This document shows positions 6,672 to 63,329 of a stretch of 64,000 bases of DNA, piece by piece. The translations under genes and the position numbers were made by a program. Below the pieces are notes generated by a model. It had not been told where the DNA came from, ran no database searches, and saw only the letters and a program-made list of their open reading frames with translations. This DNA is from Tragulus kanchil (taxonomy: Eukaryota; Chordata; Mammalia; Artiodactyla; Tragulidae), in NCBI GenBank assembly GCA_022376925.1, contig JAIOJX010000004.1, positions 124,211,123 to 124,275,122 of the forward strand, read 5' to 3'. How positions within the stretch are numbered: position 1 is the first letter of the stretch; every line of letters begins with the position of its first letter.

Positions 6672-7440
6672 ATAAGAAGTGTATTATTACATGATACAAT
6701 TAGATTTCTAATTATATGGAAATCATTGACAGGGATTTACTTTTTTTTGAAATTTTTAAAAAATGATCATCTGTTTGTAAACTTAATGTCAGCACTCCGC
6801 TGGCCCCTTCCCCCAAAAAGAGGACCAGATGTTAAGTAATTTTCTCCCTTTCATACTTTTACTGGCATTTGAAACAAGGATATTTTTGACTCTGAGATTA
6901 CTTAAGCATGGCCTATTACGTTACAGTATTTGTTTCTTTGTCAGTAGATATCAAATCTTATAATAAGTAGATAATAAATATAAACAAATACTGTTAAGTG
7001 AACACACCCATGCTGAGTACCTATAAATTCTTTATTATCTTGAGTCCTCACATTCTCTGAAGATACTAATTAGTTTATTGCTTTTAAACTTTTGGTTTTC
7101 TGGGTAAATGTGAAACACTTATTTTTTTTCCAATATACTTCTGAGATATTTGGGAGGAATGTGGGGCAAACTTCTCAATAATTTCTTTTTTTTTAACAGT
7201 CAAAATCTTATGTATTTATTTATGGATTTATTCATTTTACATAGCCTTGAACTTCAGGTCTCCAGAGGTAAGTACATTCATTCAGTAAATATTTACTGAT
7301 TACCTATGACTTTGCTAGGCATTAGTGGAGAAATGTGAGAATATAAAGATGACAGTTATATTCTCTGTTCTTAAGACATTTATAACTGAGCTGAAGACAC
7401 ATAAATGCACACAAATACATTTTATTGCTATGCAACAACT

Positions 7441-7560
7441 ATGCTAAGTTGCTTTAGTTGTATCAGACTGTGTGGCCCCATGGACTGCGGCCTGCCAGGC
7501 TACTGTCCATGGGATTTCTCAGGCAACAATACTGGACTGAGTTGCCATGCCCTTCTCCAA
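7441..7560 (-). mobile_element. Bov-tA/Bov-A SINE fragment
   Basis: Carries the body CTAAGTTGCTTTAG...GGCCCCATGGACTG and GCCATGCCCTTCTCCA, but lacks the tRNA-like head. Second copy at 8547-8666 through duplication 1. Confidence 0.75.
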
Positions 7561-7576
7561 GTAATTTTGTTGTTAA

Positions 7577-7762
7577 GAAAAGAAAAAAAAAGATTTATTT
7601 ATGTATTTGACTGCACTGGGTCCTAATTGTGGCACTTGGGATCTTTGATCTTCACTGCAACATGCAAACTTTTAGTTGCGGCAAGTGGGATTTAGTTCGC
7701 TGAGTGCAGGCCCTCTTCGTTGAGAGCTCAGAGTCTTAGCCCGTGAACCACCAGGGAAGTCC
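7577..7762 (-). mobile_element. CHR-like tRNA SINE, truncated
   Basis: Antisense: A-rich tail region and AGATTTATTTATG at the left, ending in AACCACCAGGGAAGTCC, the complement of the tRNA-like head. Copy at 8683-8868 through duplication 1. Confidence 0.75.
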
Positions 7763-8915
7763 ACCTTTTTCATGACTCATAAGAAGTGTATTATTACATG
7801 ATACAATTAGATTTCTAATTATATGGAAATCATTGACAGGGATTTACTTTTTTTTGAAATTTTTAAAAAATGATCATCTGTTTGTAAACTTAATGTCAGC
7901 ACTCCGCTGGCCCTTCCCCCAAAAAGAGGACCAGATGTTAAGTAATTTTCTCCCTTTCATACTTTTACTGGCATTTGAAACAAGGATATTTTTGACTCTG
8001 AGATTACTTAAGCATGGCCTATTACGTTACAGTATTTGTTTCTTTGTCAGTAGATATCAAATCTTATAATAAGTAGATAATAAATATAAACAAATACTGT
8101 TAAGTGAACACACCCATGCTGAGTACCTATAAATTCTTTATTATCTTGAGTCCTCACATTCTCTGAAGATACTAATTAGTTTATTGCTTTTAAACTTTTG
8201 GTTTTCTGGGTAAATGTGAAACACTTATTTTTTTTCCAATATACTTCTGAGATATTTGGGAGGAATGTGGGGCAAACTTCTCAATAATTTCTTTTTTTTT
8301 AACAGTCAAAATCTTATGTATTTATTTATGGATTTATTCATTTTACATAGCCTTGAACTTCAGGTCTCCAGAGGTAAGTACATTCATTCAGTAAATATTT
8401 ACTGATTACCTATGACTTTGCTAGGCATTAGTGGAGAAATGTGAGAATATAAAGATGACAGTTATATTCTCTGTTCTTAAGACATTTATAACTGAGCTGA
8501 AGACACATAAATGCACACAAATACATTTTATTGCTATGCAACAACTATGCTAAGTTGCTTTAGTTGTATCAGACTGTGTGGCCCCATGGACTGCGGCCTG
8601 CCAGGCTACTGTCCATGGGATTTCTCAGGCAACAATACTGGACTGAGTTGCCATGCCCTTCTCCAAGTAATTTTGTTGTTAAGAAAAGAAAAAAAAAGAT
8701 TTATTTATGTATTTGACTGCACTGGGTCCTAATTGTGGCACTTGGGATCTTTGATCTTCACTGCAACATGCAAACTTTTAGTTGCGGCAAGTGGGATTTA
8801 GTTCGCTGAGTGCAGGCCCTCTTCGTTGAGAGCTCAGAGTCTTAGCCCGTGAACCACCAGGGAAGTCCACTTCTCAGTTATTTATGACTGTTTGTAATGA
8901 ATGATAGTGTTCTTG

Positions 8916-9855: not shown

Positions 9856-9871
9856 CTCAGACAAACTCTTT

Positions 9872-10383: not shown

Positions 10384-10575
10384 TTTTTTCTAAGAGATAT
10401 CCTCAACTTCATTTTACAATATGTCTGTTGACCTATTTATTGACTATCAAGTTTGTAAATTATAATATTAAAAACATATTTATGTGTATATGTGTGTTAA
10501 GATAGAATCAAGTAACCCCCTGCTACTTGAGGCTAGAACAGAGGAGGAAGCTCTTGGTGGTTCAAGTTTTTCCTT

Positions 10576-12726
10576 CCCATCCAAACCTCTGCTTATTTCC
10601 CCTGTGTTTGGGCAATGTGCTAGAGTATACCATGCTCCTCGTCTGACCTTGACCAAGGCTGCAGTGTAAAGGGACATAGGTATTTGGGCAACCTATACCT
10701 TTGCAGATCTCACTGGATTTTCAGTATAGTTCTCTTAAATCTCCTTTTGTATTAATTGACATTTTCTATGAAAGGAGTTTTTGGAGGAAGAACAAAATGA
10801 TAGAGCTCACTTATGCTGTTACTTTAACCCCCTCGGGTTCTCTGCCTGGGAGGCTCTGATTGGCACAGGTGTGAGCTTACAGTGATGGCTGCTCAAGGAG
10901 CAGTGTCTCAGGAGTCTGGTGACATTCTCTCTACTCCTTTTTAATGCATGCTCAGTCGTGACCGACTCTTTGAGACCTCGGTGGACTGTCGCCCACAAGG
11001 CTCCCCTCTCCATGGGATTCTCCAAGCGAGAATACTGGAATGGGTTGCCATTTCCTCCTCCAGGGGGTCTTCCCGACCCATAGATTGAATCCACATCTCC
11101 TGCATCTCCTATTTGGCAGGTGGATTCTTCACCAGTGGGCCACCTGGAAAGACCTGCCTTTTTATATTTGACTATATAGTGAGAATAAAGGAGAGGTGAT
11201 GTTAAGTATTAGTGATTGATTGCAACACAATTGACTTTATCATTTTTCCTTCCCATATTATGGGTGAAGTGTAAAGAGGGAAGCAGTTTAAACCTGATGG
11301 TGAATTCTCTCCGGATAGCCTGATTTGCACCGGAGAGTCCACTATGGTGAGACTGGCCATGCCCCGCTTGCAGATAACAGTTTCCTACTTTTCTCTGGTA
11401 TCCATAAGCTCTGGGCCCCAGAAGGGAATGGGGTTTTTTTTGTGTGCTTTTCTTTACTTGTCCCTTCAGGGGATATTCTTTGATACCCAAGATTGGGTCA
11501 GGGCCCAAATCTGCAGTATTTATAGTGTTGAGAGCAACAGTTGTATCTTAATACTTACTAGGTGGAATAAATAGCACAGTACTTGGCGCATAGTAGGTTC
11601 TCAGGAAATAGTTACTGGTTGTATTTCTATCAAAAATATTTATAGTGTTGAAAGATGATTTTTTTTCTTTCCCATCCAAACCTCTGCTTATTTCCCTGTG
11701 TTTGGGCAATGTGCTAGAGTATACCATGCTCCTCGTCTGACCTTGACCAAGGCTGCAGTGTAAAGGGACATAGGTATTTGGGCAACCTATACCTTTGCAG
11801 ATCTCACTGGATTTTCAGTATAGTTCTCTTAAATCTCCTTTTGTATTAATTGACATTTTCTATGAAAGGAGTTTTTGGAGGAAGAACAAAATGATAGAGC
11901 TCACTTATGCTGTTACTTTAACCCCCTCGGGTTCTCTGCCTGGGAGGCTCTGATTGGCACAGGTGTGAGCTTACAGTGATGGCTGCTCAAGGAGCAGTGT
12001 CTCAGGAGTCTGGTGACATTCTCTCTACTCCTTTTTAATGCATGCTCAGTCGTGACCGACTCTTTGAGACCTCGGTGGACTGTCGCCCACAAGGCTCCTC
12101 TCTCCATGGGATTCTCCAAGCGAGAATACTGGAGTGGATTGCCATTTCCTCCTCCAGGGGGTCTTCCCGACCCATAGATTGAATCCACATCTCCTGCATC
12201 TCCTATTTGGCAGGTGGATTCTTCACCAGTGGGCCACCTGGAAAGACCTGCCTTTTTATATTTGACTATATAGTGAGAATAAAGGAGAGGTGATGTTAAG
12301 TATTAGTGATTGATTGCAACACAATTGACTTTATCATTTTTCCTTCCCATATTATGGGTGAAGTGTAAAGAGGGAAGCAGTTTAAACCTGATGGTGAATT
12401 CTCTCCGGATAGCCTGATTTGCACCGGAGAGTCCACTATGGTGAGACTGGCCATGCCCCGCTTGCAGATAACAGTTTCCTACTTTTCTCTGGTATCCATA
12501 AGCTCTGGGCCCCAGAAGGGAATGGGGTTTTTTTTGTGTGCTTTTCTTTACTTGTCCCTTCAGGGGATATTCTTTGATACCCAAGATTGGGTCAGGGCCC
12601 AAATCTGCAGTATTTATAGTGTTGAGAGCAACAGTTGTATCTTAATACTTACTAGGTGGAATAAATAGCACAGTACTTGGCGCATAGTAGGTTCTCAGGA
12701 AATAGTTACTGGTTGTATTTCTATCA
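10576..12726 (+). repeat. Direct duplication 2 (about 1.06 kb x 2)
   Basis: Unit A 10576-11632 and unit B 11671-12726, separated by 38 bases that partly repeat local TATAGTGTTG sequence (compare 11521). Differences: CCCC to CCC near 10600, CCCC to CTC in the SINE, and two substitutions (GGAATGGGTT against GGAGTGGATT), so the copies could be two haplotypes. No exon. Confidence 0.9.
10944..11155 (-). mobile_element. Bov-tA SINE
   Basis: AATGCATGCTCAGTCGTGAC body and GGGCCACCTGGAAAGACC end. Second copy at 12038-12249 through duplication 2; the few base differences between the two lie in this SINE. Confidence 0.8.
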
Positions 12727-12918
12727 GAAATTGATGTATGGTTAAAAAAAATAAATTAATGCTTGATGACACTGATATGAATTTGAGTCTCAGCATACAG
12801 GCTTATTATTTCACTCTTTATCAGGGCCCCAAATGATACAGAGCTTTCCTATATAGTAGAAGATATTGACCATAAGGGGATTCTGGTGGTAATCTGTAGA
12901 TAGAGTATGTCCATCTTA

Positions 12919-15658: not shown

Positions 15659-16330
15659 TTCACCAGAGTGACCTGCAAACTTTTTTTGATCTAAAAAACA
15701 TATTTTACATCACATTCCAACACACACAGGTATATAATATGTATGCAATATATAAGTGAAACAAAAGTTTTGCCAAAAATGTCTGTCCCGAGTGTTAATT
15801 CTTTTTCCTTTTTTTTGGTTTGTTTTAGGTTTACAATAAAATTGACAGGAAGGTACAGAAATTCCCCATATACTCCCTCCTCACACATGCATAACCATTA
15901 TCAACAGAGCGGTGCATTTTTTTTTTTTTTTAAACTAAGGATGAACTACATTGACACATCATAATCACCAAAGTCCAGAGTTCACCTTAGGGTTCACGTT
16001 AATGAAGTGAATGGTGTTGTACATCCTGTGGGTTTGGACAAAAGTATAATGACATGTATCTATCATTTTAATATCATACAAAGTATTTCACTGCTCATGA
16101 AAACTTCTGTACTCTGTGTATTCATCTCCCCCCGCCCCTCAAATTCCTGGCAACCATTGATCTTTTTTACTGTGTATGACCATTTATTAAGTTGGTGAGC
16201 AATATCTCTTGCATTTTTGCACAGTTAAGTCTAATAATGTGCTGGTATATTTTTCTTTTTCCTAAAAAGAATAACCCATACATTTCCCTGAAAGAAAATT
16301 ACCTTCTACACAAATTATTTATCATTTTGA

Positions 16331-16432
<102 letters not shown>

Positions 16433-17432
16433 TGAGTGTGAGTTTCAAACAACTGACTTGAAAGAAGTGATAATCCTCCATAAGATTGAAATGAAGTCCC
16501 TCAGTGAAACGAAAGATCTCATTGACCCGAGCATTAAGCTCAAGGATCAGAAGATAGAGTTTAAGACTCCATGATTCCACTTCAAGGGGCACAGGTTTGA
16601 TCACTGGTCAGTGAACCAAGATTCCATGGGGAAAAAGTATGTTCAAATTGAGTCCTTCATTTTAAATTTTATTCATTTATTTATTTTGTTATTGGCTGTG
16701 CTAGGTCTTCATTGTTGCACAAGCTTTTCTAGTTGATCTAAAAACATGATTTTTTACATTTACACATTCACCAGAGTGACCTGCAAACTTTTGATCTAAA
16801 AACATATTTTACATCACATTCCAACACACAGGTATATAATATGTATGCAATATATAAGTGAAACAAAAGTTTTGCCAAAAATGTCTGTCCCGAGTGTTAA
16901 TTCTTTTTCCTTTTTTTTGGTTTGTTTTAGGTTTACAATAAAATTGACAGGAAGGTACAGAAATTCCCCATATACTCCCTCCTCACACATGCATAACCAT
17001 TATCAACAGAGCGGTGCATTTTTTTTTTTTTTTAAACTAAGGATGAACTACATTGACACATCATAATCACCAAAGTCCAGAGTTCACCTTAGGGTTCACG
17101 TTAATGAAGTGAATGGTGTTGTACATCCTGTGGGTTTGGACAAAAGTATAATGACATGTATCTATCATTTTAATATCATACAAAGTATTTCACTGCTCAT
17201 GAAAACTTCTGTACTCTGTGTATTCATCTCCCCCCGCCCCTCAAATTCCTGGCAACCATTGATCTTTTTTACTGTGTATGACCATTTATTAAGTTGGTGA
17301 GCAATATCTCTTGCATTTTTGCACAGTTAAGTCTAATAATGTGCTGGTATATTTTTCTTTTTCCTAAAAAGAATAACCCATACATTTCCCTGAAAGAAAA
17401 TTACCTTCTACACAAATTATTTATCATTTTGA

Positions 17433-17534
<102 letters not shown>

Positions 17535-17773
17535 TGAGTGTGAGTTTCAAACAACTGACTTGAAAGAAGTGATAATCCTCCATAAGATTGAAATGAAGTC
17601 CCTCAGTGAAACGAAAGATCTCATTGACCCGAGCATTAAGCTCAAGGATCAGAAGATAGAGTTTAAGACTCCATGATTCCACTTCAAGGGGCACAGGTTT
17701 GATCACTGGTCAGTGAACCAAGATTCCATGGGGGGAAAAAAAAGTATGTTCAAATTGAGTCCTTCATTTTAAA

Positions 17774-18059
17774 TTTTATTCATTTATTTATTTTGTTATT
17801 GGCTGTGCTAGGTCTTCATTGTTGCACAAGCTTTTCTCTAGTTGTGGCGAGATGGGGCTACTCTCTAGTGGAGGAGACTGGCTTTAGGGCATGTGGGCTT
17901 CGGTAGTTCCGGCTCCCGGGCTCCAGTGCACAGGCTCTGTAGTTGTGGTGTATGGGTTTACTTGCTCTGAGGCATATGGGATCGTCCAAATCAGGGATCA
18001 AACCACTCCTGCATTGGCAGGAGAATTCTTTACCAGTGGGCAACCAGGGAAGCCCCACT
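17774..18059 (-). mobile_element. CHR-like tRNA SINE (older)
   Basis: Antisense; TTTATTTATTTTG at left, AACCAGGGAAGCCCC at right, with TTCATTTTAAA direct repeats at 17763-17773 and 18060-18070. Its left end is also present, truncated, at the end of duplication 3 unit A (about 16671-16735). Confidence 0.75.
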
Positions 18060-18802: not shown

Positions 18803-20130
18803 GTTGTTGTTGTTCAGTTGCTCAGTCGTGTTGGACTTTTTTCAACCCCATGGACTGCAGCACGCCATGCTTCCCCGTCCTTCCCTGTCTCCCAGAGTGT
18901 GCATAAACTCATGCCCATTGACTCAGTGATGTCATGTAACCTTCTCTTCTGTCACCCCCTTCTCCTGCCCCTCAGTCTTTCCCAGAATCAGAGTCTTTTC
19001 CAATGAGTCAACTGTATGCATTAGGTGGCCAAAGTATGGGACTTTAGCTACAGCATTAGTCCTTCCAGTGATTATTCAGGGTTGATTTCCATTAAGATTG
19101 ACTGGTTTAATCTCCTTGCAGTTCAAGGGACTCCCAAGAGTCTCCTCCAGCACCACAGTTCAAAACCATCAATTCTTTGGTACTCAGCCTTCTTTATGGT
19201 CTCACTCTCATACATGACTACAGGAAAAACCATAGCTTTGACTGCATGGGGCTTGTTGGCAAAGTCATGTCTACTTCTGAGTACTCTGTATACGTTTGTC
19301 ATAGCTTTTCTTCCAAGGAGCAAGTGTGTTTTAATTTCATGGCTGCAGTCACTGCCCACAGTGATTTTTGAGCCCAAGAAAGCAGTTATATGTTACTGTT
19401 TCCATTGTTCGCCCATCTCTTTGCCATGAAATGATGGAACTGGATGCCATGATCTTTGGTTTTTTTTTTTTTTTTAAGAAATGCATTTTATTTATTTATT
19501 TTTGGCTATCCTGGGTTTTCACTGCTGCTGCAGGCTCATCTCTAGTTGCAGGCAGTGGGGGCTACTCTAGTTAAGGTGAACAGACTTCTTATTGTGGTGA
19601 CTTCTCTTGTTGGGGAACTTGGGCTCTAGGGCTCACAGGCTTCAGTAGTTGTGGCACACGGGCTCAATAGTTGCGACTCTGAGGCTCTAGAGCACACGTT
19701 CAAGAGTTGTGGCTCACAGGCTTAGTTGTTCCACAGCATGTGGGATCTTCCTGGATCAGGGATCGAACCCGTGTCTCCTGCATTGGCAGGTGAACTCTTT
19801 ACCACTGAGCTACCAGGGAAACCCGATCTTAGTTTTTTGAATGTTGAGTTTTAAGCCAGCTTTTTTACTCTCCTCTTTCTCCTTCATCAAGAAGCTCTTT
19901 GGTTCCTCTTAGCTTTTGGTCATTGGAGTGGTATCATCTGCATATCTGAGATTGTTGATATTTCTTCCAGCAATCTTGATTCCAGCTTGTGCTTTATCAA
20001 GACTGGCATTTTGCATGATGTACTCTGTATAGAAGTTAAATAATCAAGATGATAATATACAGCTTTGACATACTCCCGATTTTGAAACAGTCCATTGTTT
20101 CATGTCCAGTTCTAACTGTTGCTTCTTGCT
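18803..20130 (-). mobile_element. BovB LINE, antisense, 3' part
   Basis: Antisense BovB: GTTGTTGTTCAGTTGCTCAG 3' tail, TTAGGTGGCCAAAGTATG, TTTAATTTCATGGCTGCAGT, then TTTTTGAATGTTGAGTTTTA. An antisense CHR-like SINE (19457-19823) interrupts it. The right part is repeated in duplication 4. Confidence 0.85.
19457..19823 (-). mobile_element. CHR-like tRNA SINE (older, long form)
   Basis: Antisense, T-run left, CTACCAGGGAAACCC right, inserted at GATCTT in BovB. Most of it recurs at 20695-20998 through duplication 4. Confidence 0.75.
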
Positions 20131-21858
20131 CATTTTTCTCTTTTTTGACTTTATGCTATATTTTTATTTGGAAGGTTGTCCACTTCTCAGGGTATCCACA
20201 TTTTTGCCCATCTTAACAGGAGCACATCCAATTAGAGTACTGTTCTAGCCTTCATTGGTCTTGTTCCTTTCTGAATTCCTTTAGAGATGGTTAGCTTTTC
20301 TTTGTGTACTGAGTTGCATGTATTATCTCTGATGTATACTATAGGCTGATGCTGTTACTAACATGCTTATTCTGCAGTCTCAGAGTCATTGATACTTGAA
20401 GCTGGATGGGATTGTGGAGACCATCTGTTCCAGTGCCTTCATTTAACAGGGAAAACTGCTCTGTAAATAGGGAAGTAACTTGTTCACGATCACTTGATAT
20501 TTCTGAAACACATCCTGTGCCCTTTGAGCTGACTTAATGTTTATTAAAAATGCTTTTGATTATCAGTACTTAGTTGGGTTTTCCTGATAGGTCAGTGCTT
20601 ATGAGAGTGGTATAGATCAGTGTAAATTCTTGATTTAGAGTAAGTACTGATAACCTACTTCTCTGAACTCAAGAACACTTAGCACACTGCTGCTGCAGGC
20701 TCATCTCTAGTTGCAGGCAGTGGGGGCTACTCTAGTTAAGGTGAACAGACTTCTTATTGTGGTGACTTCTCTTGTTGGGGAACTTGGGCTCTAGGGCTCA
20801 CAGGCTTCAGTAGTTGTGGCACACGGGCTCAATAGTTGCGACTCTGAGGCTCTAGAGCACACGTTCAAGAGTTGTGGCTCACAGGCTTAGTTGTTCCACA
20901 GCATGTGGGATCTTCCTGGATCAGGGATCGAACCCGTGTCTCCTGCATTGGCAGGTGAACTCTTTACCACTGAGCTACCAGGGAAACCCGATCTTAGTTT
21001 TTTGAATGTTGAGTTTTAAGCCAGCTTTTTTACTCTCCTCTTTCTCCTTCATCAAGAAGCTCTTTGGTTCCTCTTAGCTTTTGGTCATTGGAGTGGTATC
21101 ATCTGCATATCTGAGATTGTTGATATTTCTTCCAGCAATCTTGATTCCAGCTTGTGCTTTATCAAGACTGGCATTTTGCATGATGTACTCTGTATAGAAG
21201 TTAAATAATCAAGATGATAATATACAGCTTTGACATACTCCCGATTTTGAAACAGTCCATTGTTTCATGTCCAGTTCTAACTGTTGCTTCTTGCTCATTT
21301 TTCTCTTTTTTGACTTTATGCTATATTTTTATTTGGAAGGTTGTCCACTTCTCAGGGTATCCACATTTTTGCCCATCTTAACAGGAGCACATCCAATTAG
21401 AGTACTGTTCTAGCCTTCATTGGTCTTGTTCCTTTCTGAATTCCTTTAGAGATGGTTAGCTTTTCTTTGTGTACTGAGTTGCATGTATTATCTCTGATGT
21501 ATACTATAGGCTGATGCTGTTACTAACATGCTTATTCTGCAGTCTCAGAGTCATTGATACTTGAAGCTGGATGGGATTGTGGAGACCATCTGTTCCAGTG
21601 CCTTCATTTAACAGGGAAAACTGCTCTGTAAATAGGGAAGTAACTTGTTCACGATCACTTGATATTTCTGAAACACATCCTGTGCCCTTTGAGCTGACTT
21701 AATGTTTATTAAAAATGCTTTTGATTATCAGTACTTAGTTGGGTTTTCCTGATAGGTCAGTGCTTATGACGAGTGGTATAGATCAGTGTAAATTCTTGAT
21801 TTAGAGTAAGTACTGATAACCTACTTCTCTGAACTCAAAGAAAACACTTAGCACACCT
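19520..21858 (+). repeat. Direct duplication 4 (about 1.17 kb x 2)
   Basis: Unit A 19520-20694 abuts unit B 20695-21858 with no spacer. Identity is close to complete; differences I noted are GAGAGTGG against GACGAGTGG and AAGAACACTT against AAAGAAAACACTT near the end. It begins inside a SINE and ends in unique intron DNA, so it is not a transposon boundary. No exon. Confidence 0.92.
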
Positions 21859-35284: not shown

Positions 35285-35854
<570 letters not shown>

Positions 35855-44527: not shown

Positions 44528-44540
44528 GTATGTGTATACG

Positions 44541-44561
44541 TGTGTGTGTGTGTGTGTGTGA
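44541..44561. repeat. (GT)n microsatellite
   Basis: About ten GT repeats in the L1 tail; copy at 45632-45652 with the same length. Confidence 0.85.
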
Positions 44562-45961: not shown

Positions 45962-46392
45962 AGTTTTGCTTTGTGCTCTTTCTCTCCTCCCCTTCCATTT
46001 GGAGTAGAATTAAAAGTCAGTAAACACACAAATCAGTAATGACAGAAAAGAAAGTGTAATAGAATAAAATACAACAGTCTAAGTGGCATCAAAAACATGA
46101 CATACCTATGAGTAAACCTAGAAAATATATGCAAAGCTTTTTGGGGATGAAAATTATGAGACTATTGAAAGAGGTAGAAGAAGACTTTAAAAAATGTAAC
46201 CCTGTATAGTGCTCATGGGTAAGAAGATAAGGCTTATCAGTTCTCTCCAGACTAGTCTATACATTTTAGGAATCCCAAATAAAATCTCGACAGATGATTA
46301 TGCATTAATTAGACAAGAGGAATGTATTTTTATAACTATTTTAGTTATGAAAATAATGCATGCCCATTTCTTGCAACTATATGTTTTTTTTT
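45962..46392. other. Intron 5 DNA, nothing recognised
   Basis: AT-rich; some L1-like wording near 46080-46130 (GGCATCAAAAACATGACATA) but too short to call with confidence. Confidence 0.4.
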
Positions 46393-46404
46393 TCTAGAGT
46401 GGAG

Positions 46405-46617: not shown

Positions 46618-47090
46618 TAGAGTGGAGGGAAACAGGGACCTTAAATGGTCAATATATAACTTATTCACAGAAATAATCAGGTGAGTGCTAACACCCACAG
46701 TCTGTCACAAGCGCATAGGTATTCAGTTCCTCACAGTTACAAGCTCCCTAACCACCAGGCCTGTGCCCCTGCTGCTCTCTCAGTTTTCTCTTCACTGCTT
46801 TGAGTGAGCCCTGGTCCAGGTGTCCCCAGCCTCCAGGATCTAATGCCTACTGATCTGACGTGGAGCTGATGCAATCATAATAGAAATAAAGTGTACAATA
46901 AATAAAATGCCCTTGAATCAGCCCCAAACCACCCATTACCCCGTCCATGGAAAAATTGTCTTCCATGAAATCTAGTCTCTGGTTGGGGATTACTGGCCTG
47001 TGCTACTCATCTTTGAAGTTTCAGTTTAGATCTTCTCCTTCCTGCCCTGACTAGGCATGTAATCTCAATTATCTGCCCCTGTCAGGACAG

Positions 47091-47298
47091 CGGGCTCTTC
47101 CCACGTGGCTCAATGGTAAAAAGAACCTGCCTGCCAATGCAGGAGCCTCAGGCGATGCAGGTTTGATCCCTGGGTTGGGAAGATTCCCTGGAGTAGGAAA
47201 TGGCAACCCTCTCTGGTATTTTGCCTGGAGAGTTCCATGGACAGAGGAGCCTGGCGGGCTACAGTTCATGGGGTCACAGAGTCGAACACACACATCAG
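47091..47298 (+). mobile_element. Bov-tA SINE
   Basis: Sense: GGGCTCTTCCCACGTGGCTC head, GGTTTGATCCCTGGGTTGGG, ending GGTCACAGAGTCGAACACAC. About 80 bases before exon 6. Copy at about 48180-48383. Confidence 0.85.
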
Positions 47299-47309
47299 AG
47301 CAGGTATGA

Positions 47310-47486
<177 letters not shown>

Positions 47487-47623
47487 TAGTACAATTGTTT
47501 TAAAAAATGTTCAATGTAATGCCTTTCAACAAATTTATGTTTCCGAAGTTATGATTACAAAATGGATATCTTGATGTGTTTAGTATTCACAGTTTTATTT
47601 TAAAGATTGCTTAAAATCAAACC

Positions 47624-47648
47624 TGTGTGTGTGTGTGTGTGTGTGTAT
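47624..47648. repeat. (TG)n microsatellite in intron 6
   Basis: About 12 TG repeats just after exon 6; copy at 48709-48733. Confidence 0.85.
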
Positions 47649-48394
47649 AGATATGTGCAGATCCATTGCTATGTGGTCATGCACCAGAGGAATCTGTTCT
47701 GATTGGTTGGTGCCCATGGCGCACTGTTTGTTAAGTATCTGAATCTATTATAGCCTTGAATGTATAAGTCACATACACTTTATTCAACACCCACAGTCTG
47801 TCACAAGCGCATAGTTCGTCCTCACAGTTACAAGCTCTAACCACCAGGCCTGTGCCCTGCTGCTCTCTCAGTTTTCTCTTCACTGCTTTGAGTGAGCCCT
47901 GGTCCAGGTGTCCCCAGCCTCCAGGATCTAATGCCTACTGATCTGACGTGGAGCTGATGCAATCATAATAGAAATAAAGTGTACAATAAATAAAATGCCC
48001 TTGAATCAGCCCCAAACCACCCATTACCCCGTCCATGGAAAAATTGTCTTCCATGAAATCTAGTCTCTGGTTGGGGATTACTGGCCTGTGCTACTCATCT
48101 TTGAAGTTTCAGTTTAGATCTTCTCCTTCCTGCCCTGACTAGGCATGTAATCTCAATTATCTGCCCCTGTCAGGACAGCGGGCTCTTCCACGTGGCTCAA
48201 TGGTAAAAAGAACCTGCCTGCCAATGCAGGAGCCTCAGGCGATGCAGGTTTGATCCCTGGGTTGGGAAGATTCCTGGAGTAGGAAATGGCAACCTCTCTG
48301 GTATTTTGCCTGGAGAGTTCCATGGACAGAGGAGCCTGGCGGGCTACAGTTCATGGGGTCACAGAGTCGAACACACACATCAGAGCAGGTATGA

Positions 48395-48571
<177 letters not shown>

Positions 48572-48817
48572 TAGTACAATTGTTTTAAAAAATGTTCAAT
48601 GTAATGCCTTTCAACAAATTTATGTTTCCGAAGTTATGATTACAAAATGGATATCTTGATGTGTTTAGTATTCACAGTTTTATTTTAAAGATTGCTTAAA
48701 ATCAAACCTGTGTGTGTGTGTGTGTGTGTGTATAGATATGTGCAGATCCATTGCTATGTGGTCATGCACCAGAGGAATCTGTTCTGATTGGTTGGTGCCC
48801 ATGGCGCACTGTTTGTT

Positions 48818-50968
48818 AAGTATCTGAATCTATTATAGCCTTGAATGTATAAGTCACATACACTTTATTCTTGTCCTGTGCCCTTTAGTGGCTAAGACTA
48901 CAGTGTTGTGACACACTTAGAAAATGTGACAAAAGCACACAATTATATTTAATCTTGGCATTGTTATTTATATGCATTGTCTTAAAACACCTAAGTTAGT
49001 TTGATATTCTAGGGAAATATTGCTAATGGCCATTTAGTCAGTTCTTTTCCAAGCTTGTTGGTATCTACTAGGAAATGCTTATAAAGATGATGGTTGGAAA
49101 GTTGGTTGATGTTAATAATGCTTAGCTTTCATTTTCATTGTCTGGATAGCTACAGATATTAAGGCCATTTAATAGATTTCAGTGTCTTTTGATTTCCCCA
49201 GGCATACTAAATATGAAGTTTCAATATCTGGATTTAGGGATTATATAGTTGTTTTCTTGAAAATTATGCCACCTTTGAGTACACTCATAAAAGCTTTTCA
49301 AATGTTTACTCTTGAAGACTTTAGCTGTTAGGTTACAGAAATTATTTTCATTCTCATAATATTGTTCATTTCCTGCTTTTTGTTAGTGAGGTCTTTTTAA
49401 AATCTTTACCAGATGTAACTTTGGTAGGATCACAATTAAACGATTAATGATCACTCTTACGGTTTTGTTCATTTCTGAAGATTTTTTTTTTAATTTTGGC
49501 CTCTCTTATTGTTTTATTTATTTATTTTTATCCATCTTTATTCTTTGGCCTGTGCGGGCCTCCCATTGCAGTGGCCTATCTCGTTGCAGAGCACTGACTC
49601 TAGGCTCATGTGCTTCAGAGCACTGGCTCGTAATTGGGCACACCCGCCCAGCTGCTCTGCGCACGTGGGATCTTCCCGGGCCAGGAATTGAACCAGTGCC
49701 CCCTGCACTGCAAGGTAGACTCTTTACCCACTGGACCACCAGGGAAGCCCTGATTTCTGAAGGTCTTACATGACCTTAATACTATATCTGGTTTCTTGAA
49801 TTTAGCCTTTTTTTTTTTGGTGAGGCCACGGCACTTGGGATCCTAGTTCCCCGAATAGAAATCGAACCCATGCCTTGAATTTAGCCTTATTTTCGCTGCC
49901 AGGGCATGTTTAGTATCTGAATCTATTATAGCCTTGAATGTATAAGTCACATACACTTTATTCTTGTCCTGTGCCCTTTAGTGGCTAAGACTACAGTGTT
50001 GTGACACACTTAGAAAATGTGACAAAAGCACACAATTATATTTAATCTTGGCATTGTTATTTATATGCATTGTCTTAAAACACCTAAGTTAGTTTGATAT
50101 TCTAGGGAAATATTGCTAATGGCCATTTAGTCAGTTCTTTTCCAAGCTTGTTGGTATCTACTAGGAAATGCTTATAAAGATGATGGTTGGAAAGTTGGTT
50201 GATGTTAATAATGCTTAGCTTTCATTTTCATTGTCTGGATAGCTACAGATATTAAGGCCATTTAATAGATTTCAGTGTCTTTTGATTTCCCCAGGCATAC
50301 TAAATATGAAGTTTCAATATCTGGATTTAGGGATTATATAGTTGTTTTCTTGAAAATTATGCCACCTTTGAGTACACTCATAAAAGCTTTTCAAATGTTT
50401 ACTCTTGAAGACTTTAGCTGTTAGGTTACAGAAATTATTTTCATTCTCATAATATTGTTCATTTCCTGCTTTTTGTTAGTGAGGTCTTTTTAAAATCTTT
50501 ACCAGATGTAACTTTGGTAGGATCACAATTAAACGATTAATGATCACTCTTACGGTTTTGTTCATTTCTGAAGATTTTTTTTTTAATTTTGGCCTCTCTT
50601 ATTGTTTTATTTATTTATTTTTATCCATCTTTATTCTTTGGCCTGTGCGGGCCTCCCATTGCAGTGGCCTATCTCGTTGCAGAGCACTGACTCTAGGCTC
50701 ATGTGCTTCAGAGCACTGGCTCGTAATTGGGCACACCCGCCCAGCTGCTCTGCGGCACGTGGGATCTTCCCGGGCCAGGAATTGAACCAGTGCCCCCTGC
50801 ACTGCAAGGTAGACTCTTTACCCACTGGACCACCAGGGAAGCCCTGATTTCTGAAGGTCTTACATGACCTTAATACTATATCTGGTTTCTTGAATTTAGC
50901 CTTTTTTTTTTTGGTGAGGCCACGGCACTTGGGATCCTAGTTCCCCGAATAGAAATCGAACCCATGCC
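48818..50968 (+). repeat. Direct duplication 11 (about 1.06 kb x 2)
   Basis: Unit A 48818-49875 and unit B 49911-50968, offset 1093. The spacer 49876-49910 repeats TGAATTTAGCCT from just upstream (49797). Difference: CTGCGCACG against CTGCGGCACG, one lost G in unit A. The first 54 bases also end duplication 10, so they are present three times. No exon. Confidence 0.92.
49495..49752 (-). mobile_element. CHR-like tRNA SINE
   Basis: Antisense, TTTATTTATTTATTTTTATC left and GACCACCAGGGAAGCCC right. Copy at 50588-50846 (one base longer). Confidence 0.8.
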
Positions 50969-51018
50969 TCCTCCAGAAGAAGCTCTGAGTTTTTAACCAC
51001 TGGCCCATCAGAGAAGTT
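50889..51018 (-). mobile_element. CHR-like SINE, truncated
   Basis: T-run, GGCCACGGCACTTGGGATCC and CCACTGGCCCATCAGAGAAG. In unit A of duplication 11 only the left part survives (49808-49875), because the unit ends inside this SINE. Confidence 0.7.
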
Positions 51019-51509: not shown

Positions 51510-51831
51510 CTCTTTTTCTTTTTCTTGGGAGGGGGGGTGGGTTGGGGTGGGAGAGGGGCGGGTGGGCCACTTCAATCTGTTGGTCTTTGGTTTATATATT
51601 TTTATCCATCTTTTTTTTTGTTCTTTGGCCCATGTGGGCCTCCTATCGCAGTGGCCTCTGTTGTTGCAGAGCACCGGCTCTGGGCGCATGCGCTCCAGAG
51701 CTCTGGCTCAGTAATTGGACACATCGGTCCAGCTGCTCCGTGGCACGTGGGATCTTCCCAGGCCAGGGATTGAACTGGTGCCGCTTGCACTGCAAGGCGG
51801 TGTCCTTACCCACTGGACCACCAGGGAAGCT
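51510..51831 (-). mobile_element. Young CHR-like tRNA SINE
   Basis: Antisense copy: GGGTTGGGGTGGGAGAGGGG, TTCTTTGGCCCATGTGGGCC, GACCACCAGGGAAGC. Its right part is repeated at 52663-52921 through duplication 12. Confidence 0.8.
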
Positions 51832-53754
51832 CTCCTTGGAGTTTTTGATGCTGGGTGTTCGATGAAATCAACACAGTAGCCTGTGAAAGTGCACAGGGAT
51901 ATCCCTCTCTCAAGGGTAGGATGCACCTATCCTTGAATCCAAGTAAAAGAGACATTATTGTCACCAAAGGCTGGTAAGACACAGCTGTGAATTATTCCTT
52001 TTTACCAAAGAATTTTCTCTTATCAATTTACATTCTCAGAAACAAGACATTTCAATTTTTATTATTAAGAGGAAGTACATTAATTTAGGCACTTGGGGAT
52101 GCAGAAACATCAGCTAAATTGGTCCCTTCTTAAAGTTTTTATACCTCAGGGTCTGATGTGCGGGTTGTAGTTTAAAAAAATTCATTAGAATTTGGTTCTC
52201 CAGAATAATCTCTAAAGGTGACTCACAAATTACCCATGAACGTTTCAGTTAATTTCAGCAATAGGTTTCTCTTTAACAGAGAAAATAATTACTTTACCTC
52301 CCCAGATAAAGCACTTGCTACTTTTCTTAATATTTTAAGATGAACAGGTTCAGTGAAAATACTTAATTATGGAAACAAAGTGGCATCTCAGTTAAAAGAT
52401 AGAGAAATGAGTTTTAGCGTAGACTCATTAATACCCATTTTATTTTTCTGTATATAAGTATATGTTGAAAGTTAAAAATAGTTCTTTCTCTTAACATCAT
52501 AAAAAACTATATGATTGTATCAAGTGGCCATTGTATTGTTATGAAATAGTTACAGAACTTCTAGAAAATATGATACACTCTTTTAAAAAGATTCACAGGG
52601 TCTTAGTTTATAGAAATACTTTTAATTTGTAATTAAAAGCTGAGAGTGGCTTCTTATTTTTGCAATCTGTTGGTCTTTGGTTTATATATTTTTATCCATC
52701 TTTTTTTTTGTTCTTTGGCCCATGTGGGCCTCCTATCGCAGTGGCCTCTGTTGTTGCAGAGCACCGGCTCTGGGCGCATGCGCTCCAGAGCTCTGGCTCA
52801 GTAATTGGACACATCGGTCCAGCTGCTCCGTGGCACGTGGGATCTTCCCAGGCCAGGGATTGAACTGGTGCCGCTTGCACTGCAAGGCGGTGTCCTTACC
52901 CACTGGACCACCAGGGAAGCTCTCCTTGGAGTTTTTGATGCTGGGTGTTCGATGAAATCAACACAGTAGCCTGTGAAAGTGCACAGGGATATCCCTCTCT
53001 CAAGGGTAGGATGCACCTATCCTTGAATCCAAGTAAAAGAGACATTATTGTCACCAAAGGCTGGTAAGACACAGCTGTGAATTATTCCTTTTTACCAAAG
53101 AATTTTCTCTTATCAATTTACATTCTCAGAAACAAGACATTTCAATTTTTATTATTAAGAGGAAGTACATTAATTTAGGCACTTGGGGATGCAGAAACAT
53201 CAGCTAAATTGGTCCCTTCTTAAAGTTTTTATACCTCAGGGTCTGATGTGCGGGTTGTAGTTTAAAAAAATTCATTAGAATTTGGTTCTCCAGAATAATC
53301 TCTAAAGGTGACTCACAAATTACCCATGAACGTTTCAGTTAATTTCAGCAATAGGTTTCTCTTTAACAGAGAAAATAATTACTTTACCTCCCCAGATAAA
53401 GCACTTGCTACTTTTCTTAATATTTTAAGATGAACAGGTTCAGTGAAAATACTTAATTATGGAAACAAAGTGGCATCTCAGTTAAAAGATAGAGAAATGA
53501 GTTTTAGCGTAGACTCATTAATACCCATTTTATTTTTCTGTATATAAGTATATGTTGAAAGTTAAAAATAGTTCTTTCTCTTAACATCATAAAAAACTAT
53601 ATGATTGTATCAAGTGGCCATTGTATTGTTATGAAATAGTTACAGAACTTCTAGAAAATATGATACACTCTTTTAAAAAGATTCACAGGGTCTTAGTTTA
53701 TAGAAATACTTTTAATTTGTAATTAAAAGCTGAGAGTGACGCTTCTTATTTTTG
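51573..53754 (+). repeat. Direct duplication 12 (1090 bases x 2)
   Basis: Unit A 51573-52662 abuts unit B 52663-53754. The only difference I found is GAGTGGCTTC against GAGTGACGCTTC near the end. It begins inside a SINE and stops 42 bases before exon 7. Confidence 0.93.
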
Positions 53755-53791: not shown

Positions 53792-55978
<2,187 letters not shown>

Positions 55979-56778: not shown

Positions 56779-57427
56779 AGGCTTCCCTATCTTTCACTGT
56801 CTCCCAGATTTGCTCATGCTTGTATCCATTGAGTCCAGCCATTTCATCCTCTGTCTCCCCCTTCTCTTCCTGTCTGCATTCTTTCCTAGCATCAGGATCT
56901 TTTCCGGTGAGTTAGCTCTTCATATCAGGTGGCCAAAGGATTGGAGCTTCAGTTTCAGCATTAGTCCATTCAAAGAATATTCAGGATTGATTTCCTCTAG
57001 GATTGACTGGTTTGATCTCCCTGTGGTCCAAGGGACTCTTGAATCTTCTCCCATATCGCAATTTGAAAGCGTCATTTCAGCACTCAGCCTTCTTTGTGGT
57101 CCAACTCTCACATCTGTGCATGATTACTGGGAAAACCACAGTTTTGACAATATGGACCTTTGTCAGCAAAGTGATGTCTCTGGTTTTGAATGCTCTGTCT
57201 AGCTGTCAAAGCTTTTCTTCAAAGGAGCAAGTGTCTTTTAATTTCATGGCTGCAGTCGCTGTCCTCATTGATTTTGGGGCCCAGTAAAATGATATCTGTC
57301 ACTATTTTTCCCATCTATTTGCCATGAAGTGATGGGACTGGAAGCCATGATATTCGTTTTTTGAATGCTCAGTTTTATGCCAGCCTTTTCACTTTCTTCT
57401 TTCACCTTCATCAAGAGCTTCTTTAGG

Positions 57428-57620
57428 GGGCTTCCTTGGTGGTCCAGTGGTTAAGAATTTGCCTTACAATGAAGGGGGTGCAAGTTCAGTCCCTGGCCAG
57501 GGAACTAAGATACGACATCCTGAGAGGAAACTGAGCCCATGGGAACCATTGAAAATCCAGGTGTGTTACAACTAAGACTCGGCACAGCCAAATAAATAAA
57601 TAAATATTTTAAAAAAAGAA
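57428..57620 (+). mobile_element. CHR-like tRNA SINE
   Basis: Sense: GGCTTCCTTGGTGGTCCAGT head, AAATAAATAAATAAATATTT tail. Inserted into antisense BovB. Copy at 58567-58759. Confidence 0.8.
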
Positions 57621-57627
57621 AAGCTTG

Positions 57628-57900
57628 GGCTTCCCTCGTGGTCCAGTGGGTAAGGACACCACCTTGTAGTTTAAGGAGCACCAGTTTGATCCCTGGCCTG
57701 GGAAGATCCCACGTGCTGCAGAGTGACTGGACGGACGTGTCCAACTACTGAGCCAGAGCTCTGGAGTGCATGTGCCCAGAGCTGGTGCTCTGCAGTGAGA
57801 GAGGCCACTGCAATGGGAGGCCCACACAGGCCAAAGAACAAAGATGGATGAAAATAGATAAATGAAAGACCAATAGAAGTGCCCCCTCCTCCAAAAAGAA
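57628..57900 (+). mobile_element. Young CHR-like tRNA SINE, 3'-truncated
   Basis: GGGCTTCCCTCGTGGTCCAG head to GACCAATAGAAGTGCCCCCT, placed directly after the preceding SINE's A-rich tail; a classic tail-on-tail insertion. Copy at 58767-59039. Confidence 0.8.
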
Positions 57901-59035
57901 GAGCTTTTTAAATTCCTCTTCCTTTGTGCCATTAAGTGATATCACTTGCGTATCTGATATTGTTGATATATCTCCTGGCAGTCTTGATTCCAACTTGTGA
58001 TTCATCCAGCCCAGCATTTCACATGATGTACTTTGCATAGAAGTTAAATAAGCAGTGTGACAGTATACAGCCTTGATGTACTTCTTTCCCTATTTGGAAC
58101 CAGTCCATTCAAAGAATATTCAGGATTGATTTCCTCTAGGATTGACTGGTTTGATCTCCCTGTGGTCCAAGGGACTCTTGAATCTTCTCCCATATCGCAA
58201 TTTGAAAGCGTCATTTCAGCACTCAGCCTTCTTTGTGGTCCAACTCTCACATCTGTGCATGATTACTGGGAAAACCACAGTTTTGACAATATGGACCTTT
58301 GTCAGCAAAGTGATGTCTCTGGTTTTGAATGCTCTGTCTAGCTGTCAAAGCTTTTCTTCAAAGGAGCAAGTGTCTTTTAATTTCATGGCTGCAGTCGCTG
58401 TCCTCATTGATTTTGGGGCCCAGTAAAATGATATCTGTCACTATTTTTCCCATCTATTTGCCATGAAGTGATGGGACTGGAAGCCATGATATTCGTTTTT
58501 TGAATGCTCAGTTTTATGCCAGCCTTTTCACTTTCTTCTTTCACCTTCATCAAGAGCTTCTTTAGGGGACTTCCTTGGTGGTCCAGTGGTTAAGAATTTG
58601 CCTTACAATGAAGGGGGTGCAAGTTCAGTCCCTGGCCAGGGAACTAAGATACGACATCCTGAGAGGAAACTGAGCCCATGGGAACCATTGAAAATCCAGG
58701 TGTGTTACAACTAAGACTCGGCACAGCCAAATAAATAAATAAATATTTTAAAAAAAGAAAAGCTTGGGCTTCCCTCGTGGTCCAGTGGGTAAGGACACCA
58801 CCTTGTAGTTTAAGGAGCACCAGTTTGATCCCTGGCCTGGGAAGATCCCACGTGCTGCAGAGTGACTGGACGGACGTGTCCAACTACTGAGCCAGAGCTC
58901 TGGAGTGCATGTGCCCAGAGCTGGTGCTCTGCAGTGAGAGAGGCCACTGCAATGGGAGGCCCACACAGGCCAAAGAACAAAGATGGATGAAAATAGATAA
59001 ATGAAAGACCAATAGAAGTGCCCCCTCCTCCAAAA

Positions 59036-61261
59036 AGAAGAGCTTTTTAAATTCCTCTTCCTTTGTGCCATTAAGTGATATCACTTGCGTATCTGATATT
59101 GTTGATATATCTCCTGGCAGTCTTGATTCCAACTTGTGATTCATCCAGCCCAGCATTTCACATGATGTACTTTGCATAGAAGTTAAATAAGCAGTGTGAC
59201 AGTATACAGCCTTGATGTACTTCTTTCCCTATTTGGAACCAGTCCATTATTCAATGTAAAGTTCTAACTGTTGCTTCTTGTCTTGCATACGAGTTTCTCA
59301 GGAGACAGATAGGTGTTTTGGTATTCCCGTGTCGTGAAGAATTTTTCACAGTTTGTTGTGATCCACACAGTCAAAGGCTTTAGCATGGTTAATGAAGCAG
59401 GAGTAGATGCTTTTCTGGAATTCTGTCTCTTTCTCTGTGATCCAGTGAGTATTGGCAATTTGATCTCTGGTGCCTTTACCTTTTCTAAATCCAGGTTGTA
59501 CATCTGAAAGTTCTCTGTTCAGGTACTGTTGAAACCTAGCTTGAAGGATTTTGAGTATTACTTAGCTAGCATGAGAAATAAGTGCAATTGTATGATGGTT
59601 GGAACATTCTTTGACATCACCCTTCTTTGGGATTGGAATGAAGGCTGAGTCTTTCCAGTCCTGTGGTCACTGCTGAGTTTTCCAAATTTGTTGGCATATT
59701 GAGTGCAGTACTTTAACAGCATCACCTTTTAATATTTGAAATAGCTCAACTGGAATTCCATCACCTCCACTATCTTTGTTCATAGTAATGCTTCCTAAGC
59801 CCACTTGACTTCACACTCCAGGATGTCTTGCTCTAGGTGAGGGACCACACCATCATGATTATCTGGGTAATTAAGACATTTTATGTATATTTCTTCTGTG
59901 TGTTCTTGCCACTTGTTCTTAATCTCTTCTGCTTCTGTTAGGTCCTTGCCATTTCTGTGCTTTATTTAAATTTAAAAACTTAACCAAAATAAATAAAGTG
60001 AAAATTCAGTTTCCCTTCACTGGCTCCATATATGAGTACTATGTAGGTCAACATAGATAAAAAAACATGGTCCTCACTAGAGAAAGCCTGTAGAACAGAG
60101 CCTAATTAGAAGGATCAAGATGAAATCCTGTTTGTAATTCTTATTTAGAAGAGCTTTTTAAATTCCTCTTCCTTTGTGCCATTAAGTGATATCACTTGCG
60201 TATCTGATATTGTTGATATATCTCCTGGCAGTCTTGATTCCAACTTGTGATTCATCCAGCCCAGCATTTCACATGATGTACTTTGCATAGAAGTTAAATA
60301 AGCAGTGTGACAGTATACAGCCTTGATGTACTTCTTTCCCTATTTGGAACCAGTCCATTATTCAATGTAAAGTTCTAACTGTTGCTTCTTGTCTTGCATA
60401 CGAGTTTCTCAGGAGACAGATAGGTGTTTTGGTATTCCCGTGTCGTGAAGAATTTTTCACAGTTTGTTGTGATCCACACAGTCAAAGGCTTTAGCATGGT
60501 TAATGAAGCAGGAGTAGATGCTTTTCTGGAATTCTGTCTCTTTCTCTGTGATCCAGTGAGTATTGGCAATTTGATCTCTGGTGCCTTTACCTTTTCTAAA
60601 TCCAGGTTGTACATCTGAAAGTTCTCTGTTCAGGTACTGTTGAAACCTAGCTTGAAGGATTTTGAGTATTACTTAGCTAGCATGAGAAATAAGTGCAATT
60701 GTATGATGGTTGGAACATTCTTTGACATCACCCTTCTTTGGGATTGGAATGAAGGCTGAGTCTTTCCAGTCCTGTGGTCACTGCTGAGTTTTCCAAATTT
60801 GTTGGCATATTGAGTGCAGTACTTTAACAGCATCACCTTTTAATATTTGAAATAGCTCAACTGGAATTCCATCACCTCCACTATCTTTGTTCATAGTAAT
60901 GCTTCCTAAGCCCACTTGACTTCACACTCCAGGATGTCTTGCTCTAGGTGAGGGACCACACCATCATGATTATCTGGGTAATTAAGACATTTTATGTATA
61001 TTTCTTCTGTGTGTTCTTGCCACTTGTTCTTAATCTCTTCTGCTTCTGTTAGGTCCTTGCCATTTCTGTGCTTTATTTAAATTTAAAAACTTAACCAAAA
61101 TAAATAAAGTGAAAATTCAGTTTCCCTTCACTGGCTCCATATATGAGTACTATGTAGGTCAACATAGATAAAAAAAAACATGGTCCTCACTAGAGAAAGC
61201 CTGTAGAACAGAGCCTAATTAGAAGGATCAAGATGAAATCCTGTTTGTAATTCTTATTTAG
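59036..61261 (+). repeat. Direct duplication 15 (1111 bases x 2)
   Basis: Unit A 59036-60146 abuts unit B 60147-61261. Difference noted: an A-run before CATGG, 7 against 9. Unit A covers antisense BovB RT sequence and 180 bases of unique DNA. Its first 206 bases and last 182 bases are shared with duplications 14 and 16. Confidence 0.93.
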
Positions 61262-63329
61262 GAATATAAGCAAAATGGCAGTTTAGACAGTAAATTATTA
61301 TAAGCCTACCCCCTCTGCATGCTTATAGTAGAACAGGTCCATATGCCTTTAGGTTGAATTGTAAGAACAGAGCTCTTGGAAGTGTGCAATACTTTGGAAT
61401 TGGGGATGCTGAATAGATTGCATGTTTTCTGATAATGAAAGATCTATTTAGGCTGTGAGTTTTGAATTAGTCTAGTGAGTGCCCTGGACGCCCAGCCCCT
61501 CCTCTGAGCTGTGTTCTTTGCACTCTGTTACCTGCATCAGCCTTCTTCTCTGTAATTATTTTCCTCCAGGTCTGTCCTGTTTTATTGTGGAGTGATCTTG
61601 GTGAGATGGAAGATTATGAACTGGTTTAATGGAGAGGGGTCCTCAGAGATCATAAACTACCTGCATATTTTCCTGCCTGTTAAATAGTAACAATAATAAT
61701 AGCTAACCAAGCATTTGTTATATATTATTCACTGATGTATTCTTTTTTCTTAACATGTATTTGAGCTGGGTCTTTGCTCTAGTTGCAGCGAGTGGGGGCT
61801 GTTCTCTAGTGGTGATATGCAGGCTTCTCAGCACGGCGGCTTCTCTTGTCAGGAGCACAGACTGTAGGTGTGCAGGCTTCCGTAGCTGTGGTGCGTGGGC
61901 TCAGCTGCCTGTGGCCTGTGGGCTTAGCTGCTCTGGAGCATGTGGGTTCTTCCCAGACGAGGAATTGAACCCATGTCCCATTCACTGGCAGGCAGACTCC
62001 TAACCCCTGGACCACTAAGGAGGTCCCACTTTTGTATTCTTTATGGATTTTTTTTTTTTTGGCAAATATTTACAATAGTCTAATGAGGTGGGAATGATTT
62101 TTATCCTTGTTTTACAGATGAGCGCTATAAAGTACAGAGAGGTTAGGTTGTATACTTATGTCACACAGCTAGGTGGAGCTAAGGTAGAACCAAAGAAGAG
62201 GTTTGTTTTTAATTTAAAACTTAACCAAAATAAATAAAGGGAAAATTCAGTTTCCCTTCACTGGCTCCATATATGAGTACTATGTAGGTCAACATAGATA
62301 AAAAAAAACATGGTCCTCACTAGAGAAAGCCTGTAGAACAGAGCCTAATTAGAAGGATCAAGATGAAATCCTGTTTGTAATTCTTATTTAGGAATATAAG
62401 CAAAATGGCAGTTTAGACAGTAAATTATTATAAGCCTACCCCCTCTGCATGCTTATAGTAGAACAGGTCCATATGCCTTTAGGTTGAATTGTAAGAACAG
62501 AGCTCTTGGAAGTGTGCAATACTTTGGAATTGGGGATGCTGAATAGATTGCATGTTTTCTGATAATGAAAGATCTATTTAGGCTGTGAGTTTTGAATTAG
62601 TCTAGTGAGTGCCCTGGACGCCCAGCCCTCCTCTGAGCTGTGTTCTTTGCACTCTGTTACCTGCATCAGCCTTCTTCTCTGTAATTATTTTCCTCCAGGT
62701 CTGTCCTGTTTTATTGTGGAGTGATCTTGGTGAGATGGAAGATTATGAACTGGTTTAATGGAGAGGGGTCCTCAGAGATCATAAACTACCTGCATATTTT
62801 CCTGCCTGTTAAATAGTAACAATAATAATAGCTAACCAAGCATTTGTTATATATTATTCACTGATGTATTCTTTTTTCTTAACATGTATTTGAGCTGGGT
62901 CTTTGCTCTAGTTGCAGCGAGTGGGGGCTGTTCTCTAGTGGTGATATGCAGGCTTCTCAGCACGGCGGCTTCTCTTGTCAGGAGCACAGACTGTAGGTGT
63001 GCAGGCTTCCGTAGCTGTGGTGCGTGGGCTCAGCTGCCTGTGGCCTGTGGGCTTAGCTGCTCTGGAGCATGTGGGTTCTTCCCAGACGAGGAATTGAACC
63101 CATGTCCCATTCACTGGCAGGCAGACTCCTAACCCCTGGACCACTAAGGAGGTCCCACTTTTGTATTCTTTATGGATTTTTTTTTTTTTTGGCAAATATT
63201 TACAATAGTCTAATGAGGTGGGAATGATTTTTATCCTTGTTTTACAGATGAGCGCTATAAAGTACAGAGAGGTTAGGTTGTATACTTATGTCACACAGCT
63301 AGGTGGAGCTAAGGTAGAACCAAAGAAGA
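61080..63329 (+). repeat. Direct duplication 16 (about 1.12 kb x 2)
   Basis: Unit A 61080-62199 and unit B 62211-63329 with an 11-base spacer. Offset 1131 falls to 1129 through run-length changes (TTAAAAACTT to TTAAAACTT, CAGCCCCTCC to CAGCCCTCC). One substitution, AAAGTGAAA against AAAGGGAAA. Confidence 0.93.
61750..62028 (-). mobile_element. CHR-like tRNA SINE (older)
   Basis: Antisense: TTTGAGCTGGGTCTTTGCTC left, TGGACCACTAAGGAGGTCCC right. Copy at 62879-63157. Confidence 0.75.

Follow-up and report, generated by a model that had tools for sequence, protein, structure and literature searches.

A stretch of 64,000 bases from the genome assembly of Tragulus kanchil (GCA_022376925.1, contig JAIOJX010000004.1; the whole stretch is called the window below), which holds exons 1 to 7 of the gene OXCT1, contained a ladder of sixteen tandem pairs of near-identical direct copies of about 1.1 kb. 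Judged from the assembled letters, this ladder is very probably an assembly artefact, in which overlapping consensus pieces would have been joined without trimming, leaving the overlap written twice. Most likely, there is no biological feature in the ladder and the artefact spans the whole assembly. Untrimmed overlaps, either of neighboring contigs or of corrected reads, had already been proposed in a first-pass annotation of the window, and the proposal was supported by the occurrence of the same doubling in nearly all random stretches of the assembly, by the polarity of the insertions and deletions (indels) along the copies, and by the resemblance of the bases inserted between copies to the flanking sequence.

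When the window was compared with itself (E 1e-20, identity >93%), all sixteen of the pairs listed in the first-pass annotation were recovered, and every second unit started within 10 bases of the position given there (these starts are the first coordinates of B below). The measured offsets, 1,043-1,178 bases, agreed with the claimed repeat size of 1.04-1.18 kb, and their sum, 17,721 of the 64,000 bases, with the claim of about 17.7 kb, or more than a quarter of the window. The units were 1,046-1,165 bp long (median 1,091.5, n = 16), copy-to-copy identity was 98.9-100%, and about 38% of the unique sequence of the window appeared twice. The longest was unit 7, which contains a poorly matching stretch and aligns as two pieces. 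The copies had been described as adjacent, which held strictly for only some of the pairs: seven junctions were insert-free, with 0-8 bases common to both sides, but eight had 6-43 extra bases and pair 7 had 13, or 99 if the poorly matching start of copy B is excluded. The pairs are listed here with A as the first copy and B as the second; no strand is assigned.

6672..8870: pair 1, A 6672-7764, 14-base insert, B 7779-8870
10567..12731: pair 2, A 10567-11637, 24-base insert, B 11662-12731
15659..17837: pair 3, A 15659-16730, 36-base insert, B 16767-17837; OXCT1 exon 3 doubled
19520..21838: pair 4, A 19520-20672, 12-base insert, B 20685-21838; the insert repeats, in shortened form, the bases after B
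27246..29426: pair 5, A 27246-28314, 43-base insert, B 28358-29426; 100% identity; the insert is partly like the sequence upstream of A
30953..33040: pair 6, A 30953-31998, B 31996-33040; insert-free
39156..41449: pair 7, A 39156-40320, B 40334-41449; poor match near the start of B
41723..43889: pair 8, A 41723-42808, B 42805-43889; insert-free
43780..45964: pair 9, A 43780-44873, B 44871-45964; 100% identity; 110-bp overlap with pair 8
46690..48870: pair 10, A 46690-47785, B 47786-48870; OXCT1 exon 6 doubled; deletions clustered near the start of B; 57-bp overlap with pair 11
48814..50969: pair 11, A 48814-49875, 31-base insert, B 49907-50969
51573..53754: pair 12, A 51573-52662, B 52663-53754; A lacks 2 bases near its end
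53815..55971: pair 13, A 53815-54889, 6-base insert, B 54896-55971; starts within OXCT1 exon 7
56963..59248: pair 14, A 56963-58109, B 58102-59248; 8 junction bases common to both
59036..61261: pair 15, A 59036-60148, B 60147-61261; 213-bp overlap with pair 14
61086..63329: pair 16, A 61086-62199, 16-base insert, B 62216-63329; 176-bp overlap with pair 15

The remaining matches in the self-comparison were overlaps between neighboring units, 78-bp matches (94.9%) within unit 7, and tandems of 54 bp and 78 bp. The stretches that had been called clean indeed lacked 1.1-kb pairs in this comparison; one of them holds the 54-bp tandem.

The same doubling was found well beyond the window. The assembly comprises 3,167,203,957 bases in 32 contigs, and the window's own contig is 294 Mb long. 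Sixty positions, confined to parts of 12 contigs, were chosen by a seeded draw, and the first 20 were analyzed as 10-kb stretches (197.5 kb of letters in total, referred to as the random set). Nineteen of the 20 stretches contained a 1.1-kb doubling and 18 contained at least one complete unit; stretch L079 had a single doubling clipped by its edge, and L068 had none. The 40 complete units of the random set were 1,008-1,182 bp long, with a median identity of 99.73%. Together with the 16 window units they gave 56 complete units, with aligned lengths over the same range of 1,008-1,182 bp; units clipped by stretch edges were left out, and for window unit 7 only the longer aligned piece (39281-40320) was used. 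There were 48-49 junctions in the random set (one in L081 continues its neighbor, so 48 is as likely), compared with 16 in the 64-kb window, and the window is therefore ordinary for this assembly. No direct repeats of at least 50 bp and at least 97% identity were found in the random stretches at spacings of <950 or >2,400 bp. A replication or repair process that placed real tandem duplications of about 1.1 kb across the genome would also leave adjacent and near-identical copies, but such duplications would not be expected to have a single length or to be present in almost every stretch drawn at random, and this explanation is considered extremely improbable.

Searches of the assembly with single sequences also returned pairs at this distance. 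A search with unit 1 gave 47 hits, consisting of the two window copies and the hits of a repeat family; besides the window pair, eight pairs of hits were spaced by 1.08-1.16 kb, some of them at other places on the window's contig and some on other contigs. A let-7 search gave five hits, two of which had the same score and a spacing of 1,112 bp (G000:C7:143219007-143220194); these are probably a single microRNA gene and its false duplicate. Two let-7 hits were 852 bp apart and their scores differed; presumably they form a real let-7 cluster, which serves as a natural control. Excess letters made up about 27% of the random sample. If this sample of 197.5 kb is typical, about 27% of the 3.167-Gb assembly would be false extra sequence, and by extrapolation the size of the de-duplicated assembly would be near 2.3 Gb.

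Untrimmed overlaps lead to a prediction about the positions at which the two copies differ. Suppose that the overlap forms the end of piece P and the beginning of piece Q, and that quality is worst at the ends of pieces. Copy 2 should then lack bases close to its start, and copy 1 close to its end. This polarity was first noticed in the window and was then tested on the random stretches, for which the assembly letters alone are needed; places where the copies differ in length simultaneously were skipped in the scoring. In the window, 25 of the 27 indels obeyed the rule: 19 of 20 in the first halves of units were deletions in copy 2, and in the second halves six of seven were losses from copy 1 (Fisher p 1.6e-4; 0.010 at one vote per unit half). 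The same was true of 64 of the 69 indels in the random set, where 38 of 41 in the first halves were deletions in copy 2 and 26 of 28 in the second halves were deletions in copy 1 (Fisher p 1.7e-13; 1.8e-7 at one vote per unit half, after removal of 2 ties). The first tenth of the random-set units held 29 deletions in copy 2 and 0 in copy 1, and the last tenth held 20 in copy 1 and 0 in copy 2. When the copy labels were swapped at random unit by unit, agreement at least as good as the real one arose in 86 of 20,000 window trials and in 0 of 20,000 random-set trials. Without the three units having inserts of >60 bases, the agreement was 21 of 23 and 56 of 60, respectively. A real tandem duplication offers no reason for missing bases to lie at the ends of units, so this polarity separates an artefact from biology.

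Substitutions were also counted, and 33 of the 65 in the 56 units were found in the first and last tenths. Only 32 were in the middle eight tenths, or about 0.07%, which argues against a heterotype false duplication, that is, two haplotypes placed side by side, although short-read polishing could hide allelic differences. The few interior substitutions, for example the three in pair 2, would fit such an origin, but haplotype bubbles should give neither a constant length nor deletions clustered at the ends, and two haplotypes are a very improbable source of the ladder. Duplications that were already in the sequenced molecules, as a library or amplification artefact, can be assigned a negligible probability by reasoning: they would be random and variable from read to read, so the consensus would vote them out, and they would leave the fixed length and the polarity at piece ends unexplained.

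For the inserts between copies, anchored alignments were made to the bases following copy 2 or preceding copy 1, with random places for comparison. The inserts resembled these flanks more than random places did, with a combined p of 0.0013 for eight inserts in the window and 3.6e-11 for 26 in the random set, a resemblance that speaks against real duplication. Because many of the inserts resemble degraded flanks, the ends of the pieces seem to run slightly beyond the overlap in poor quality. The clearest example in the window was the insert of pair 4, and local alignment of nine window inserts to their flanks also gave p 0.0013. Four inserts that were copy-derived or long had been dropped from the final anchored test (one in the window, one in L069, and two in L081). 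Earlier versions of the test, with nine window inserts (p 7.5e-5 and 3e-4) and 29 random-set inserts (p 1.5e-11), were superseded because some of the counted inserts belonged to the copies, as in pair 7. Some inserts match neither flank.

Two results from the junctions weigh against untrimmed overlaps. Taken individually, only 2 of the 8 window inserts and 13 of the 26 in the random set resembled a flank at p<=0.05. Furthermore, the seven insert-free window junctions, within 31996-60148, had 20 common bases in total versus 4.9 expected (p 2.6e-5), an excess over chance as in microhomology-mediated real duplications, though perhaps a joiner that accepted a short chance match would give the same sharing. 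In the random set, 5 of the 40 junctions were insert-free, with 8 common bases in total. No N was present at the junctions of any of the 56 complete units, and the letters were continuous. Unequal crossing-over between flanking repeats was considered and rejected, as the homology scores of unit ends (17-41, n = 16) were within those of random pairs (null 95th percentile 44).

The step at which the overlaps would have been retained can be narrowed further. Neighboring consensus pieces would overlap by about 1.1 kb and be joined end to end, so that at each junction one consensus piece would end and the following one begin, the pieces presumably being least accurate at their ends. The joined pieces were probably consensus segments with a common graph vertex, and not whole contigs or reads, because there were pieces as short as about 1.8-2.1 kb. 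The lengths of 37 pieces ranged from 1,810 to 8,325 bp; 15 of the 37 were <2.45 kb, and the shortest were 1,810, 1,821, 1,992, and 2,047 bp. The overlap offset had a mean of 1,116 and a standard deviation of 34 (56 units). Such a constant overlap would correspond to the common vertex of a fuzzy-Bruijn-graph assembler, for example wtdbg or wtdbg2, with segments of 1,024 bases, and a vertex overlap of the wtdbg type is the likeliest single source, with a probability somewhat above even. The consensus program of wtdbg2 merges neighboring edges at their common vertex, and here that merging would have failed about once per 4 kb of assembly. In the passages that describe it, wtdbg2 cuts reads into 1,024-bp segments, which become the vertices of the graph (PMC10989838, PMC7506008), and the consensus is computed by a second program (PMC12037172). 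Nanopore reads are described as having a higher deletion rate (PMC8590762); when reads are short of bases, a vertex of 1,024 raw bases becomes longer than 1,024 after consensus, and with deletion-rich reads, probably Nanopore, it would reach about 1.05-1.15 kb. The mean offset of 1,116 would fit 1,024 raw bases only if the reads were deletion-rich.

Several observations speak against a wtdbg step. The wtdbg bin size is 256 bases, but no 256-base quantisation of piece lengths was found, the best period being no better than a jittered control (0.51); jitter between reads and consensus could hide it. In the window all four overlaps between neighboring units were <256 bp, but this failed as a rule over the full set, in which 2 of 11 cases measured 375 and 398 bp. 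The failure of merging at an overlap identity of 99.7% is left unexplained. Node length is adjustable, with 1,536-2,560 given in a passage of PMC11087460. In addition, a wtdbg2 Nanopore assembly of human HG002 is given as 2.97 Gb, with more collapses, in the part of PMC8590762 concerned, which indicates that ordinary wtdbg2 runs do not inflate in this way. If a wtdbg program was responsible, the failure would need to be specific to a version or setting.

The uninflated HG002 assembly and the invisibility of 256-base bins would both suit an origin in some other step that left overlaps untrimmed, either an overlap-based assembler with a minimum overlap of about 1 kb or a chunk-wise polisher with overlaps of about 1 kb, and the resulting structure would be identical. 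Fixed polishing chunks, however, would not give pieces as different in length as those above. Homopolymer-compressed overlaps occur in graph assemblers with k=1001. A k-mer overlap of this kind was rejected, because the compressed lengths of the 16 window units varied more than the plain ones (coefficient of variation 4.5% vs 3.1%). A different step is a serious but less probable source than the vertex overlap of a wtdbg-type assembler.

Related errors have been described in other assemblies. Like the ladder, the homotype false duplications reported by the Vertebrate Genomes Project (VGP) are near-identical extra copies made by assembly rather than two alleles (PMC9516828). In the passages concerned, these duplicates are mostly separated by assembly gaps, and gaps between copies are listed among their primary characteristics (PMC9516828), whereas the 56 units here were gap-free and of one length, recurring about every 4 kb. 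The fuzzy Bruijn graph of wtdbg2 resembles the ladder in that vertices of 1,024 bases would fit an overlap of about 1.1 kb and the shortest pieces would be near two vertices in length; the descriptive passages of PMC10989838 and PMC7506008 do not mention retained overlaps, and the ladder pieces lack bin quantisation. The 'expansion' error defined for Inspector is likewise a wrongful expansion of the target sequence, but in the text concerned 84.8% of structural errors were <500 bp and expansions were tied to repeats (PMC8590762), while the ladder units are 1.0-1.2 kb and far denser. No published description of this exact artefact was recognized in a literature search, which is not proof of its absence.

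The window carries OXCT1 on the + strand, and the ladder alters the apparent structure of this gene. A query of the human OXCT1 protein matched exons 1 to 7 at 82-97% identity, with the exception of the cut copy of exon 7, and the translation of exon 5 (52 residues) matched solved succinyl-CoA:3-ketoacid CoA transferases (best E 1.1e-28). The exons affected by doubling are as follows.

16341..16431, + strand: OXCT1 exon 3, 91 bp, AG...GT; second copy within unit B of pair 3
47379..47485, + strand: OXCT1 exon 6, 107 bp, AG...GT; second copy within unit B of pair 10
53797..53857, + strand: OXCT1 exon 7, 61 bp, AG...GT; second copy 54896-54938, with neither the acceptor site nor the first 18 bases

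Exon 7 is cut where unit 13 starts. The doubled exons 3 and 6 have frame-breaking lengths, and such damage to an enzyme gene, together with the cut in exon 7, is a further argument against real duplications. The exon 7 fragment could be mistaken for an exon by an annotation pipeline. A search of viral_contigs for outside sequence of the locus with a 15-base exon pattern matched 59 stretches, probably by chance.

The artefact is relevant to anyone working with this assembly. False exons could enter gene models, as in OXCT1, where two complete exons and one fragment are involved, and the assembly would give wrong numbers of tandem duplications, of small-RNA copies, and of repeats. It is conceivable, though on balance doubtful, that the consensus-joining failure belongs to a widely used long-read route and that the same ladder has gone unnoticed in other public assemblies, where it would duplicate exons falsely and inflate genome sizes. 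As a simple check, the polarity test can be run without reads, and if the failure is shared by other assemblies, it would detect them.

Four smaller features of the window were also recorded. The 54-bp tandem, at 22764-22875 in a stretch otherwise without 1.1-kb pairs, has 2.1 copies of its unit at 100% identity and may represent either a genuine minisatellite or a minor error of the consensus. The 78-bp unit at 56623-56778 is present exactly twice at 100% identity and is far shorter than the ladder units. A 139-codon open frame on the + strand (23159-23575) resembles what we take to be the start of a Tigger-type transposase remnant, and one of 152 codons, also on the + strand (35845-36300), resembles what is presumably a reverse-transcriptase fragment of a long interspersed nuclear element (LINE).

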